From contig JADFDS010000008.1 of the NCBI GenBank assembly GCA_018262715.1, forward strand, positions 24,259 to 88,258: a stretch of DNA of 64,000 nt, written 5' to 3'. This DNA comes from Bacteroidota bacterium (GTDB lineage: Bacteria; Bacteroidota; Bacteroidia; Bacteroidales; VadinHA17). The position numbers and the translations under genes are program-made. The notes under the pieces were generated by a model that saw only the letters and a program-made list of their open reading frames with translations, did no database searches and was not told the origin of the DNA. Each line of letters opens with the position of its first letter. The stretch's first letter is position 1. Below, in pieces: positions 24,271 through 59,038 of the stretch.

Positions 24271-27200
24271 TCACAACAGATCAGCAGGCAGGTTGAGGGA
24301 GTAATTGTACGGAAGGAATACGGTTACCTCGGTGCCAGATGCCTTGCCGTTGTCATACAGGTCAGTCAGGTTGAATGTGATTTTTTCCCTGTTCACCTTA
24401 TTGAGAGTATCCACAATACCTGAAATATTCTTCAGTCCCGTGCCGGTGCCGTGGGTACGCATTTTCGCAGCAGCAGCCCTTCCTATTCCGTTGTCACGGA
24501 TTTTCACTTCCACCCCTCCTTCGAGGTTCATGATGCTTATCTCAAGGATCCCCCGCTCCTTCTTGTTTTCAAGGCCATGTTTTATCGCGTTTTCAGCGAA
24601 CGACTGTATGATCATCTTTGGTACGGGACTCTTCAGGTTTACGTCAGGTGCAACATTTATCCTGTATTCGAACCTGTTGCCAAAGCGCAGTTTTTGTAGT
24701 TCACAGTAGCGTGTAACGAACTCAAGCTCCTCCTCCAGCGGCTTCAGGAGGGCGTTGCTGTCAGCGATAATGGAACGAAGCAGGTTTGACAGTTTTATGA
24801 AATAGTTATAGGCTTTTTCCTTTTCGCCTTTCATTATAAGTGACCCGACGGAGGTAACGGCATTGAACGTGAAATGCGGGTCAAACTGTTTTATCACCGA
24901 GTTTAGCTGCAGCCTGTATGCCTCAGCCTGAATGCGGGCAGTTATAACCCTCCTTTCCAGTACAGCTTTTCGTATCTGGAATGAGAGGAACACTATCAGC
25001 CCGAGGGCTATAAGAGCCATCAGTGCAATAGCGACTTTTGACTGGATGAATGTTGGCACAACGCTGACCTCCAGTTTATCGGGGTCTTCAGACAGAACTC
25101 CGTCGGCGTTTATCGCCTGGACTTCGAAAGTATATTCGCCGGGAGGCAGATTGGTGTAAACAACTGATCGCTCTGCGGTCTTTTCTGACCAGTTGTCATT
25201 AAAGCCCGCCATTCTGTAACGATACCTGACACCCTCCGGATTTCTTGTCGAGATACCGGTGTAGCTGATTCTTATACGGTTCTGTCTTCCCCTGACCCTC
25301 AGGAAGCTGGTGGTGTCATAGAACAGGGAGGCCTCCAGCGCCGTTTTCCAGGGTGTTTCTTCGTCCTGGAGCTCGACTTTGGTAATGTGGTTCATGGGAG
25401 GATATGTGTTCCTGCTGATCTTATCCGGATCAAAACGGATCAGCTTGTCAGAGGTCAGAATCCACCATCTGCCTTCCTTATCCTTTATAATTCCGTTGTC
25501 CTGGCAGTCATTGCCCGGGAATCCCTGACTCCTGCCTGTTATGGAATAATAATCGGGCTGCCCTGAATAATATTTGTCAAGATCGATGATGCAGATATCC
25601 ATCATTCGTCCGATGATCAGCCTGTGGTTTCCCAGGTCACGGATGACACTGGCAGGAAGGTTGACCTCTTCGGGCAGGGCCCTGTCAAAGACAGGCTCGT
25701 TCGGATCGCATATGTACAGGCCGTCAGAGCCCGCACTCCAGATGTTTCCCATGTGGTCGCAAACCACTCCCCATACCATCTCGGCCGGGGCTGGCGATGA
25801 ACGGAACGGGATGAAATTTTTCCCGTCAAAATAAACCACACCGTAGTGTCCGGCCAGCCAGTAATGGCCCTCGTGATCCCTGGCGACACTCTCCACTATT
25901 CCGTATCCATACCAGGACATCTCCTCATGGATGGTTACCCTGCCATCCCTGATGTGGAACAGGCCCCGGTCAGTCCCGACAAATATGCTTTTATCGACGG
26001 GATCCTCGTAGATGATACAGACCTGGTACGGATCGGGAGACAGATCTGGCAACCTGAATCTTCTGCCATCCCAGATCAGCACACCCTCTACTGTTGAAAA
26101 CCATATCTCGCCGTTGCTCAGGGTGGTGCTCCCCCTGAAGAAGGCCACCGGGTGGCCGAACAGCGCCTGGTATTCATTTTTTCCCCGGAATTTTTCCCCG
26201 TCAAAGTATCTCAGTTCACCTTCGACAGAACCGGTCCAGATTCCTCCGAGAGGATCGGCCACCACAGCCCAGGTTTCCTCCGGTAACCCGTTTTCCCTGT
26301 CATATGTTACGAATGCCTGTGACATAAGCCTGTAGATGCTGGTTTCCGTGCCAGCCCAGATTGTCCCCTCCCGGTCCTCATAGTACATCGCGAGGTTACC
26401 GCTTTCCCAATAGAATGGTTCTATGGTCGGGAAGAGGGCATCTGACATGTACCGGTACCGGACCTGGCCATCGACTATGTCAATTTCGTAGACATCACTT
26501 TTGTTGAGTGGTTTCAGCTGGCCCTTTTCATAGGCGAAGGCTTCATTATTTTTGTCTATCAGGTAGAGGAGTGAGTCGCGCTGATTGGCCGCTGCGACTG
26601 AAAAACTGGTGCCCCGGAGCAGCGGATGGCGGGAGGCGAAATCGGTGTACCTGCCGTTTTCAAAAAGGAGAATTATCTGGTTGTCATTGTCGATTAAAGC
26701 TGAAAGGAAGAATGAATTGGTGTCACGTCCGATTGCCACCCTGTCGAGCTGTTTGACCCTGAATGAATCAGGGATGGGATAACTTTCGAAGTTTGCCCCG
26801 TTGAAGCGAGCCACCCCGTTCGCGGTGATGGCCCATATTATGCCCCCCCTGTCTTCAATCACCGAGGTTATAAGGTTTGACGGCAGGCCGTCCTTGCGCA
26901 GGTAGGAATTGAAGGTATAACCGTCGAATCTTGCCAGGCCGTTCCTGGTGGGTATCCAGAGGTATCCCCTGCTGTCCTGCACCACGGATGTCGACTGTGT
27001 CTGTGGAAGGCCGTCGTCGGAGGTATATTCCCGGTAGGAGTAAGTCTGGGCACGGAGGGAGAGGCCTGTTGTTGCAAGCAAAATGACAAGCAGCAGGGCA
27101 GGGAGCCGTGCAACTGTTTGCGTCAGGGCAGAGAGCCTTGCAGGCGCTGGCAACAGGGCAGGATACCGTGCAGCTGTTTGCGTCAGGGCAGAGAGCCTTG

Positions 27201-27354
27201 CAGGTGCTGGCAACAGGGCAGGATACCGTGCAGCTGTTTGCGTCAGGGCAGAGAGCCTTGCAGGTGCTGGCAACAGGGCAGGATACCGTGCAGGCGCCAG
27301 CAACAGTACAGCCGCCGGCCGCATAACCCCTCGTACTCTCTTGTCCAGCTTCAT
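24271..27354 (-). CDS. two-component sensor with Reg_prop propeller, Y_Y_Y domain and LytS-type kinase
   Basis: YTSDDGLPQTQSTSVVQDSRGYLWIPTRNGLARFDG repeats; NLPPGEYTFEVQAINADG; QFDPHFTFNAVTS. Confidence 0.9.
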   Translation of the reverse strand: MKLDKRVRGVMRPAAVLLLAPARYPALLPAPARLSALTQTAARYPALLPAPARLSALTQTAARYPALLPAPARLSALTQTVARLPALLLVILLATTGLSLRAQTYSYREYTSDDGLPQTQSTSVVQDSRGYLWIPTRNGLARFDGYTFNSYLRKDGLPSNLITSVIEDRGGIIWAITANGVARFNGANFESYPIPDSFRVKQLDRVAIGRDTNSFFLSALIDNDNQIILLFENGRYTDFASRHPLLRGTSFSVAAANQRDSLLYLIDKNNEAFAYEKGQLKPLNKSDVYEIDIVDGQVRYRYMSDALFPTIEPFYWESGNLAMYYEDREGTIWAGTETSIYRLMSQAFVTYDRENGLPEETWAVVADPLGGIWTGSVEGELRYFDGEKFRGKNEYQALFGHPVAFFRGSTTLSNGEIWFSTVEGVLIWDGRRFRLPDLSPDPYQVCIIYEDPVDKSIFVGTDRGLFHIRDGRVTIHEEMSWYGYGIVESVARDHEGHYWLAGHYGVVYFDGKNFIPFRSSPAPAEMVWGVVCDHMGNIWSAGSDGLYICDPNEPVFDRALPEEVNLPASVIRDLGNHRLIIGRMMDICIIDLDKYYSGQPDYYSITGRSQGFPGNDCQDNGIIKDKEGRWWILTSDKLIRFDPDKISRNTYPPMNHITKVELQDEETPWKTALEASLFYDTTSFLRVRGRQNRIRISYTGISTRNPEGVRYRYRMAGFNDNWSEKTAERSVVYTNLPPGEYTFEVQAINADGVLSEDPDKLEVSVVPTFIQSKVAIALMALIALGLIVFLSFQIRKAVLERRVITARIQAEAYRLQLNSVIKQFDPHFTFNAVTSVGSLIMKGEKEKAYNYFIKLSNLLRSIIADSNALLKPLEEELEFVTRYCELQKLRFGNRFEYRINVAPDVNLKSPVPKMIIQSFAENAIKHGLENKKERGILEISIMNLEGGVEVKIRDNGIGRAAAAKMRTHGTGTGLKNISGIVDTLNKVNREKITFNLTDLYDNGKASGTEVTVFLPYNYSLNLPADLL
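27093..27300 (-). repeat. 60-bp tandem repeat inside sensor-kinase signal region
   Basis: GGGCAGGATACCGTGCAGCTGTTTGCGTCAGGGCAGAGAGCCTTGCAGGTGCTGGCAACA about 3.3 copies; encodes (LLPAPARLSALTQTAARYPA)n. Confidence 0.95.
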
Positions 27355-28257: not shown

Positions 28258-28284
28258 GTAAAAGAGCCGGCATCATGCCAGCTC
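28258..28284 (-). terminator. Rho-independent terminator of tRNA-Val-derived unit
   Basis: Minus strand GAGCTGGCATGATGCCGGCTCTTTT. Confidence 0.65.
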
Positions 28285-28298
28285 CTGCGTCTTCACTG

Positions 28299-28406
28299 TG
28301 GGGCGTACTGGAATTCCGCCTGCTGGCGGACAAGCGAACCAGTGACCTCTTCCGTCAGCTGACGGATCCGCCGGTTGGCGGACTAAACCAACTGAGCTAA
28401 CGTCCC
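28299..28406 (-). pseudogene. tRNA-Val-like gene disrupted by palindromic insertions
   Basis: Minus strand GGGACGTTAGCTCAGTTGGTTTAG-[TCCGCCAACCGGCGGA][TCCGTCAGCTGACGGA]-AGAGGTCACTGGTTCG-[CTTGTCCGCCAGCAGGCGG]-AATTCCAGTACGCCCCA. Confidence 0.75.
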
Positions 28407-28643
28407 ATTCAGTGCAAGTTTGATTTTGATGACTCTTGCCTGTCATCCGCCAGTTGGCGGACTAAACCAACTGAGCTAACGTCCCATTCAGTGCAAGTTT
28501 GATTTTGATGACTCTTGCCTGTCATCCGCCGGTTGGCGGACTAAACCAACTGAGCTAACGTCCCATTCAGTGCAAGTTTGATTTTGATGACTCTTGCCTG
28601 TCATCCGCCAGTTGGCGGACTAAACCAACTGAGCTAACGTCCC
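28407..28643 (-). repeat. 79-bp tandem repeat, 3 units, each carrying a tRNA-Val 5' segment
   Basis: CGTCCC marker at 28401, 28480, 28559 and 28638, spacing exactly 79; unit GGGACGTTAGCTCAGTTGGTTTAG-TCCGCCAAC(T/C)GGCGGA-TGACAGGCAAGAGTCATCAAAATCAAACTTGCACTGAAT. Confidence 0.95.
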
Positions 28644-28652
28644 GGGCGGGGA

Positions 28653-28660
28653 CAAAGATA
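28653..28660 (-). promoter_or_regulatory. Bacteroidota -7 box TATCTTTG ahead of tRNA-Val-derived array
   Basis: Minus strand TTATCTTTGTCCCCGCCCGGGACG; box lies about 9 nt before first GGGACG. Confidence 0.6.
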
Positions 28661-32631: not shown

Positions 32632-32782
32632 TACAGTTCTACAATGCAGTATGGCCAAAATCGCACATCGCACATCGCAATTCTGTATGGCCAAAATCGC
32701 ACATCGCACATCGCACATCGCAATTCTGTATGGCCAAAATCGCACATCGCACATCGCACATCGCAATTCTGTATGGCCTGCC
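32632..32782 (+). repeat. Family A element with 36/43-nt higher-order repeats
   Basis: TTCTACAATGCAGTATGGCCAAAATCGCACATCGCACATCGC; TATGGCC spacing 36, 43, 43 (one heptamer difference). Confidence 0.92.
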
Positions 32783-58882: not shown

Positions 58883-59038
58883 ATGACCTTCAGACCTTCA
58901 GACTTCAGACCTTCAGACCTTCAGACCTTCAGACCTTCAGACCTCAGACCTCAGACCTCAGACCTTCAGACCTCAGACCTTCAGACCTTCAGACCTTCAG
59001 ACCTTCAGACCTCAGACCTTCAGACCTCAGACATATGA
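58883..59038 (+). CDS. 51-aa ORF encoded wholly by the 7/8-nt repeat array
   Basis: ATG at 58883; MTFRPSDFRPSDLQTFRPSDLRPQTSDLQTSDLQTFRPSDLQTSDLQTSDI*; TGA overlaps wza start as ATGA. Confidence 0.4.
   Translation: MTFRPSDFRPSDLQTFRPSDLRPQTSDLQTSDLQTFRPSDLQTSDLQTSDI
58886..59032 (+). repeat. Family C tandem array (CTTCAGAC/CTCAGAC)
   Basis: About 19 head-to-tail units of 7 or 8 nt ending 3 nt before wza ATG. Confidence 0.97.

Follow-up and report, generated by a model that had tools for sequence, protein, structure and literature searches.

A tandem array of tRNA-Val(GAC) parts in a Bacteroidota genome, probably the scar of a small selfish GIY-YIG element

The array and its parts

The window, a stretch of 64,000 nucleotides from a Bacteroidota bacterium (contig JADFDS010000008.1), carries on its minus strand, at 28643-28299, three units of 79 bp followed by a longer fourth copy that resembles tRNA-Val. 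Direct reading and Tandem Repeats Finder (28366-28643, period 79, 3.5 copies, 98% matches) both bear out the array of 79-bp period with palindromic insertions that the original prediction described. The four units start on the minus strand at 28643, 28564, 28485, and 28406, and each 79-bp unit consists, in order, of positions 1-24 of tRNA-Val(GAC), a palindrome of 16 bp, TGACAGGCAAGAG, and an A/T-rich spacer. The palindromes, which alternate between AACTGG and AACCGG forms across the array, replace AGCGCTTGCT in the units, i.e., the end of the D stem together with the 5′ strand of the anticodon arm; TGACAGGCAAGAG corresponds to the anticodon loop and the 3′ side of the same arm. The fourth copy also has a T arm and a 3′ acceptor strand; of its three palindromes, two fall within the anticodon region and the third within the T loop. 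The features are:

28653-28660, minus strand: TATCTTTG, putative promoter box of the Bacteroidota -7 type from the tRNA-Val(GAC) gene; the same box and flank precede the intact tRNA in the congener G005
28565-28643, minus strand: unit 1, putative displaced 5′ part of tRNA-Val(GAC) (positions 1-24) with palindrome, TGACAGGCAAGAG, and spacer
28604-28619, minus strand: palindrome of unit 1, TCCGCCAACTGGCGGA
28486-28564, minus strand: unit 2, made up as unit 1, with palindrome TCCGCCAACCGGCGGA
28525-28540, minus strand: palindrome of unit 2
28407-28485, minus strand: unit 3, made up as unit 1, with palindrome TCCGCCAACTGGCGGA
28446-28461, minus strand: palindrome of unit 3
28299-28406, minus strand: fourth copy, a 5′ acceptor strand apparently fused to the downstream displaced tRNA copy of an element, matching L258 and L280 base by base; not a working tRNA
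28383-28400, minus strand: TTAGCTCAGTTGGTTTAG, 18-bp direct repeat common to the 5′ units, the intact tRNA, and the displaced copy; putative deletion site
28367-28382, minus strand: first palindrome of the fourth copy, replacing the 5′ side of the anticodon arm
28351-28366, minus strand: second palindrome of the fourth copy, TCCGTCAGCTGACGGA
28315-28330, minus strand: third palindrome of the fourth copy, TCCGCCAGCAGGCGGA, in the T loop
28260-28284, minus strand: GC hairpin and TTTT resembling an intrinsic terminator, from the tRNA-Val(GAC) gene; the same sequence follows the intact tRNA in G005

The derivation from tRNA-Val(GAC) was correctly predicted: because the intact tRNA-Val(GAC) of congeners reads GGGACGTTAGCTCAGTTGGTTTAGAGCGCTTGCTTGACAGGCAAGAGGTCACTGGTTCGATTCCAGTACGCCCCA, the GAC that survives within TGACAGGC is the old anticodon. 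An A4-C69 mismatch in the acceptor stem is normal in the genus and is not decay. As had also been supposed, the array is dead as a tRNA, with no cloverleaf called by ARAGORN or Rfam RF00005, and Rfam covariance models gave no match on the stretch at the gathering score or at E<=5. Signals resembling a promoter and a terminator are indeed present, but they are not the array's own as had been proposed, since both flank the intact tRNA at the empty site in G005. An assembly error is unlikely because the array lies inside its contig and a congener (G013) carries a nearly identical 79-bp unit; the copy number is given as assembled.

Other repeats occur in the window. A 60-bp tandem repeat (27090-27293) keeps the reading frame of a sensor-like ORF of 1027 aa (24271-27354, minus strand) and lies at its N-terminus, and short tandem repeats of the ATCGCAC and GACCTTCA types are found at 32642-32778 and 58885-59032. 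Short tandem repeats of this style also surround palindromes elsewhere in the source genome.

The Val(GAC) locus in the genus

Of the 22 genus genomes searched, 18 carry the tRNA-Val 5′-end pattern, often as two to four tandem copies before the intact gene. At the Val(GAC) locus itself, these genomes differ in state. The site is empty in G002, G005, and G012 (promoter, tRNA-Val(GAC), terminator), and one decayed unit accompanies the intact tRNA in G004, G009, G010, and G020. The full state, with units, intact tRNA, a GIY-YIG ORF, and a displaced copy, is found in G007, G013, and, with a degenerate displaced copy, G016; in G003, the GIY-YIG ORF is now a pseudogene. In the full elements, one or more 5′-half units with a hairpin replacing the 5′ side of the anticodon arm are followed by intact tRNA-Val(GAC), the GIY-YIG ORF, and a hairpin-bearing displaced 3′ part of the tRNA. 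The window has units and a fused scar without an intact tRNA. The original prediction proposed a search for an intact tRNA-Val(GAC) elsewhere in its genome (G000: 3.15 Mb, 44 contigs, 98% complete), and none was present among 37 tRNA hits.

The fourth copy in the window aligns base by base with the displaced copies in G013 (L258) and G007 (L280), with the three palindromes in matching positions, and the flanks of the array are identical to those of the empty site in G005 at 58/60 upstream and 38/40 downstream bases. Empty site (G005), full element (G013 and G007), and scar (the window) share junctions at an orthologous locus. From these congener states, with their matching palindrome positions and flanks, the array is best read as a deletion product, and our data suggest that it is very probably the scar of a small selfish GIY-YIG element once lodged in the tRNA-Val(GAC) gene. 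A tRNA-Val cluster decayed in place, as one of the earlier proposals had it, does not fit this comparison, in which units 1-3 correspond to the displaced 5′ parts of the congener element, and the fourth copy corresponds to its displaced downstream copy.

The nuclease ORF of the Val(GAC) element in congeners encodes 82 aa and belongs to the GIY-YIG superfamily, with matches to PF01541 (2.3e-18 and 1.3e-15) above the Pfam cut-off; the nearest solved chains are those of UPF0213 and SLX1. Homing endonucleases such as I-TevI owe their specificity to a separate DNA-binding region, whereas the 82-aa protein has one GIY-YIG domain and no separate DNA-binding domain. Because of this single domain, we do not class it as a proven homing endonuclease. 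It may nevertheless work like one: the occurrence of both empty and occupied alleles at the Val(GAC) locus and the clustering of tRNA isotypes on the nuclease tree (below) are indirect signs of the homing type.

From the arrangement of these loci, we infer nuclease-driven homing and array growth. A tRNA gene free of the element would be cut by the nuclease and then repaired with an occupied copy as template, which would install the element and split the target. Because the element carries an intact tRNA, the host would survive the insertion and would come to depend on the element. The 5′ units could multiply where the repeated tRNA segments break or slip. In the source genome of the window, both the intact tRNA and the nuclease gene would have been removed, and a 5′ part fused to the displaced copy, by recombination between copies of the 18-bp TTAGCTCAGTTGGTTTAG, an event strongly supported by the sequence comparison. 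Since the codons of a lost isoacceptor can be read by another Val tRNA, the loss of tRNA-Val(GAC) was presumably tolerated.

GIY-YIG genes, partial tRNAs, and palindromes beyond the locus

Besides UvrC and a 459-aa protein, a Pfam GIY-YIG search of the 22 genus genomes found 21 small ORFs or fragments, 20 of which, all those checked, adjoin a tRNA gene or fragment; the remaining one lies at a contig edge. The tRNAs concerned are Val-GAC, Val-TAC, Met, fMet, Pro, Arg, Gly, and Lys, and no tRNA lies near the UvrC-size and 459-aa genes at the loci fetched. At most of the 20 loci, a partial copy of the adjoining tRNA stands on the other side of the ORF. At the Pro locus, this copy lies upstream and comprises positions 1-21, and the ORF ends in RGIAQSG, residues encoded by the first part of the intact tRNA; at the Gly locus, it comprises positions 54-74 and is downstream.

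The phylum was sampled independently through its 29 top-scoring GIY-YIG loci. A same-strand tRNA directly precedes the ORF at eight of them, and at seven of these eight the far side of the ORF bears a partial, displaced copy of the tRNA; the other loci have no tRNA nearby. On a tree that included the usable members of this sample, the GIY-YIG proteins not associated with tRNAs fall into one separate clade (97/98), two contig-edge sequences aside, and tRNA isotype clusters (18 changes vs 32.6 when shuffled, 0/200), as expected if each nuclease lineage stays with its own tRNA. Among the usable loci of the sample that are not next to an intact tRNA, a single contig-edge sequence is the exception to this grouping.

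Across Bacteroidota, tRNA genes for Met, Lys, Ala, Pro, Gly, Leu, Ser, and others show the same succession of a hairpin-bearing partial tRNA, an intact tRNA, a GIY-YIG ORF, and a displaced partial tRNA. A pattern joining the D arm to a TCCCG hairpin has matches in 27 of 295 genomes of the order (reversed control, 0) and in at least 118 stretches of the species collection; among the matches listed, these stretches are mostly from Bacteroidota, cultured species included, and the few from other phyla are mostly genuine tRNAs with a TCCCG stem. Units stand before their cognate tRNA (Met, Lys, Val, Ala, Arg, Thr, and others), reaching eight near-identical 84-bp copies before tRNA-Met in one genome (G306). 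In upstream copies, the 3′ half is absent; downstream copies are their mirror image, with no 5′ acceptor strand. GIY-YIG ORFs adjoin many of the hairpin arrays, and many arrays are now without a nuclease gene.

It is unlikely, given this distribution, that a tRNA-Val cluster arose by ordinary tandem duplication and then decayed, with palindromes inserted by chance and an incidental nuclease gene in congeners. The units are clearly tRNA duplicates, some congeners have a single decayed unit (L045, L049, L050, and L057), and the palindromes also occur elsewhere in the genome, all of which such a history would accommodate. It would not account for complementary truncations upstream and downstream of many unrelated tRNA genes, nor for GIY-YIG ORFs between intact and displaced copies far above chance.

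Several further loci were noted. In G021 (C399; L320 1-280), tandem downstream copies, each with a D-arm part, a hairpin, the tRNA-Met 3′ half, and a terminator, form a mirror array before a GIY-YIG ORF. A tRNA copy with a GIY-YIG ORF occurs in Verrucomicrobia (Pro) and Armatimonadota (Ala) (L200 and L254), extending the element beyond Bacteroidota. An Uhrbacteria stretch (L155) has tRNA-Arg-like units with a CCCGACGC..GCGTCGGG hairpin before an intact tRNA-Arg(GCG), and in Elioraea (Alphaproteobacteria; L212), additional bases, perhaps left over from an intron, lie in the anticodon region of a tRNA-like gene. Candidate fused scars so far number four: the Val-GAC array of the window, L081 (Val-CAC), L131 (Val-like), and L203 (Ala-like).

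The source genome itself holds other arrays. Two 66-bp units stand before an intact tRNA-Val(CAC), and 78-bp units derived from tRNA-Val(TAC) lie at a contig end (L010 1-155; C13). A search of the assembly for the 3′ half of tRNA-Val(TAC) gave no match, the array stopping at the contig end, and the intact gene is missing from the assembly, probably at the contig break. This array at a contig end and its missing gene suggest that hairpin arrays may break assemblies and hide tRNAs. Partial copies also precede tRNA-Ala(TGC) in an rRNA operon, tRNA-Met, and tRNA-Cys, and follow tRNA-Lys(CTT). Those before tRNA-Cys (C31; L039 about 1389-1560) form four to five units of 45 bp in which a palindrome replaces the D arm and not the anticodon arm.

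The palindrome TCCGCCNNNNGGCGGA occurs 35 times in the source genome (reversed control, 0), and 15 of these occurrences lie no farther than ~170 bp from a tRNA gene or a tRNA copy. Two TCCGCC..GGCGGA palindromes are held by a cobalamin riboswitch (91.9 bits; L091 306-518; C4:46150-46950). TCCGCC palindromes appear to lodge in hairpins of structured RNAs; they are found away from tRNAs too and may be a separate mobile repeat. That a REP-like family of palindromic mobile repeats alone made the structure is decidedly unlikely: the genome-wide count, the proximity to tRNAs, and the riboswitch copies would suit it, but it leaves unexplained the tRNA parts on both sides of the intact tRNA, the nuclease gene, and the units with quite different hairpins. 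A pure palindrome element was rejected once the link to GIY-YIG genes emerged.

Among 140 distinct hairpins that replace the anticodon arm, 127 retain a complementary 3′ side that was no part of the search pattern, and 26 different inner stems are represented. Such pairing, together with the promoter and terminator in place, would suit a structured RNA with a function or a tRNA-like leader with a regulatory role. We consider this very improbable because unit number varies among congeners, which also include empty and decayed alleles, there is no Rfam match, and unit sequences depend on the locus. The new RNA of about 380 nt suggested in the original prediction is unsupported, and a new ncRNA was rejected, for the first three of these reasons. 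A Val-specific regulatory leader was rejected since Ala, Met, Cys, Lys, and other tRNAs show like units, and a decoy for anticodon nucleases is unlikely because the units have their anticodon arm replaced.

Relation to known systems and significance

Genomic islands at tRNA genes (Islander, PMC4383910) likewise split their target tRNA and have a regenerated copy and a displaced fragment at their ends, a hallmark shared with the loci described here, but it is highly improbable that these are scars of integrase-driven islands with tRNA genes as attachment sites, since the intact and displaced copies are only a few hundred bp apart, the space between them at L258, L280, and L283 holds only a GIY-YIG ORF and no integrase, and the displaced copies are repeated, bear hairpins, and overlap the 5′ units by ~40 bp of tRNA sequence.

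The GIY-YIG homing endonucleases that T-even phages carry as free-standing genes, SegB foremost (PMC13096335; Virol J 2010, PMC2988022), come closest to the favored reading of a nuclease-based element; there too, the nuclease gene lies among tRNA genes of many isotypes. In phage T6, SegB cleaves tRNA genes, and tandem amplification of a tRNA segment depends on it (PMC13096335); by analogy, it may serve as a tested precedent, in that phage, for enlargement of arrays through breaks. The element differs in residing in a bacterial chromosome, in its nuclease of about 82 aa with a single domain, and in the hairpin-bearing partial tRNA copies that flank the intact tRNA. Group I introns with homing endonucleases in the anticodon loops of bacterial tRNAs (PMC3984707) are also selfish, insert in the anticodon region, and sometimes carry a nuclease gene; the element has no intron, and function is kept by a separate intact tRNA copy instead of splicing. 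Double-hairpin elements, GC clusters, and palindromic mobile repeats of organelles (e.g., PMC7218506 and PMC4478555) resemble it as small mobile palindromes of compact genomes, some near tRNA genes; this is resemblance only, as the element is bacterial and tied to tRNA duplication and a GIY-YIG gene. No published description of such elements in bacterial chromosomes was found in the searchable literature, which mostly excludes subscription papers. The array itself is a dead scar, and its system is unusual in combining two known kinds, free-standing genes of GIY-YIG homing type and elements that split a tRNA but regenerate their target, in a form that matches neither.

A broader proposition, which we hold to be evenly poised between right and wrong, is that these loci form a phylum-wide class of selfish elements free of integrases and introns, in which a tiny GIY-YIG nuclease splits a tRNA gene and supplies the sole working copy, so that loss of the element kills the tRNA. 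Half-tRNA hairpin arrays would be the footprint of this tRNA-dependence trap, and the window would record an escape from it at a dispensable isoacceptor. If so, a small parasite built on a nuclease would occupy, or have scarred, many tRNA genes of Bacteroidota, and current annotation would record it just as a stray GIY-YIG protein or miss it altogether. The element would be a bacterial-chromosome counterpart of phage SegB, would account for assembly-breaking repeats at tRNA genes and for seemingly missing tRNAs, and would offer a direct test case for a selfish gene that holds an essential gene hostage. The locus in the window shows a route by which a tRNA isoacceptor gene may be lost.
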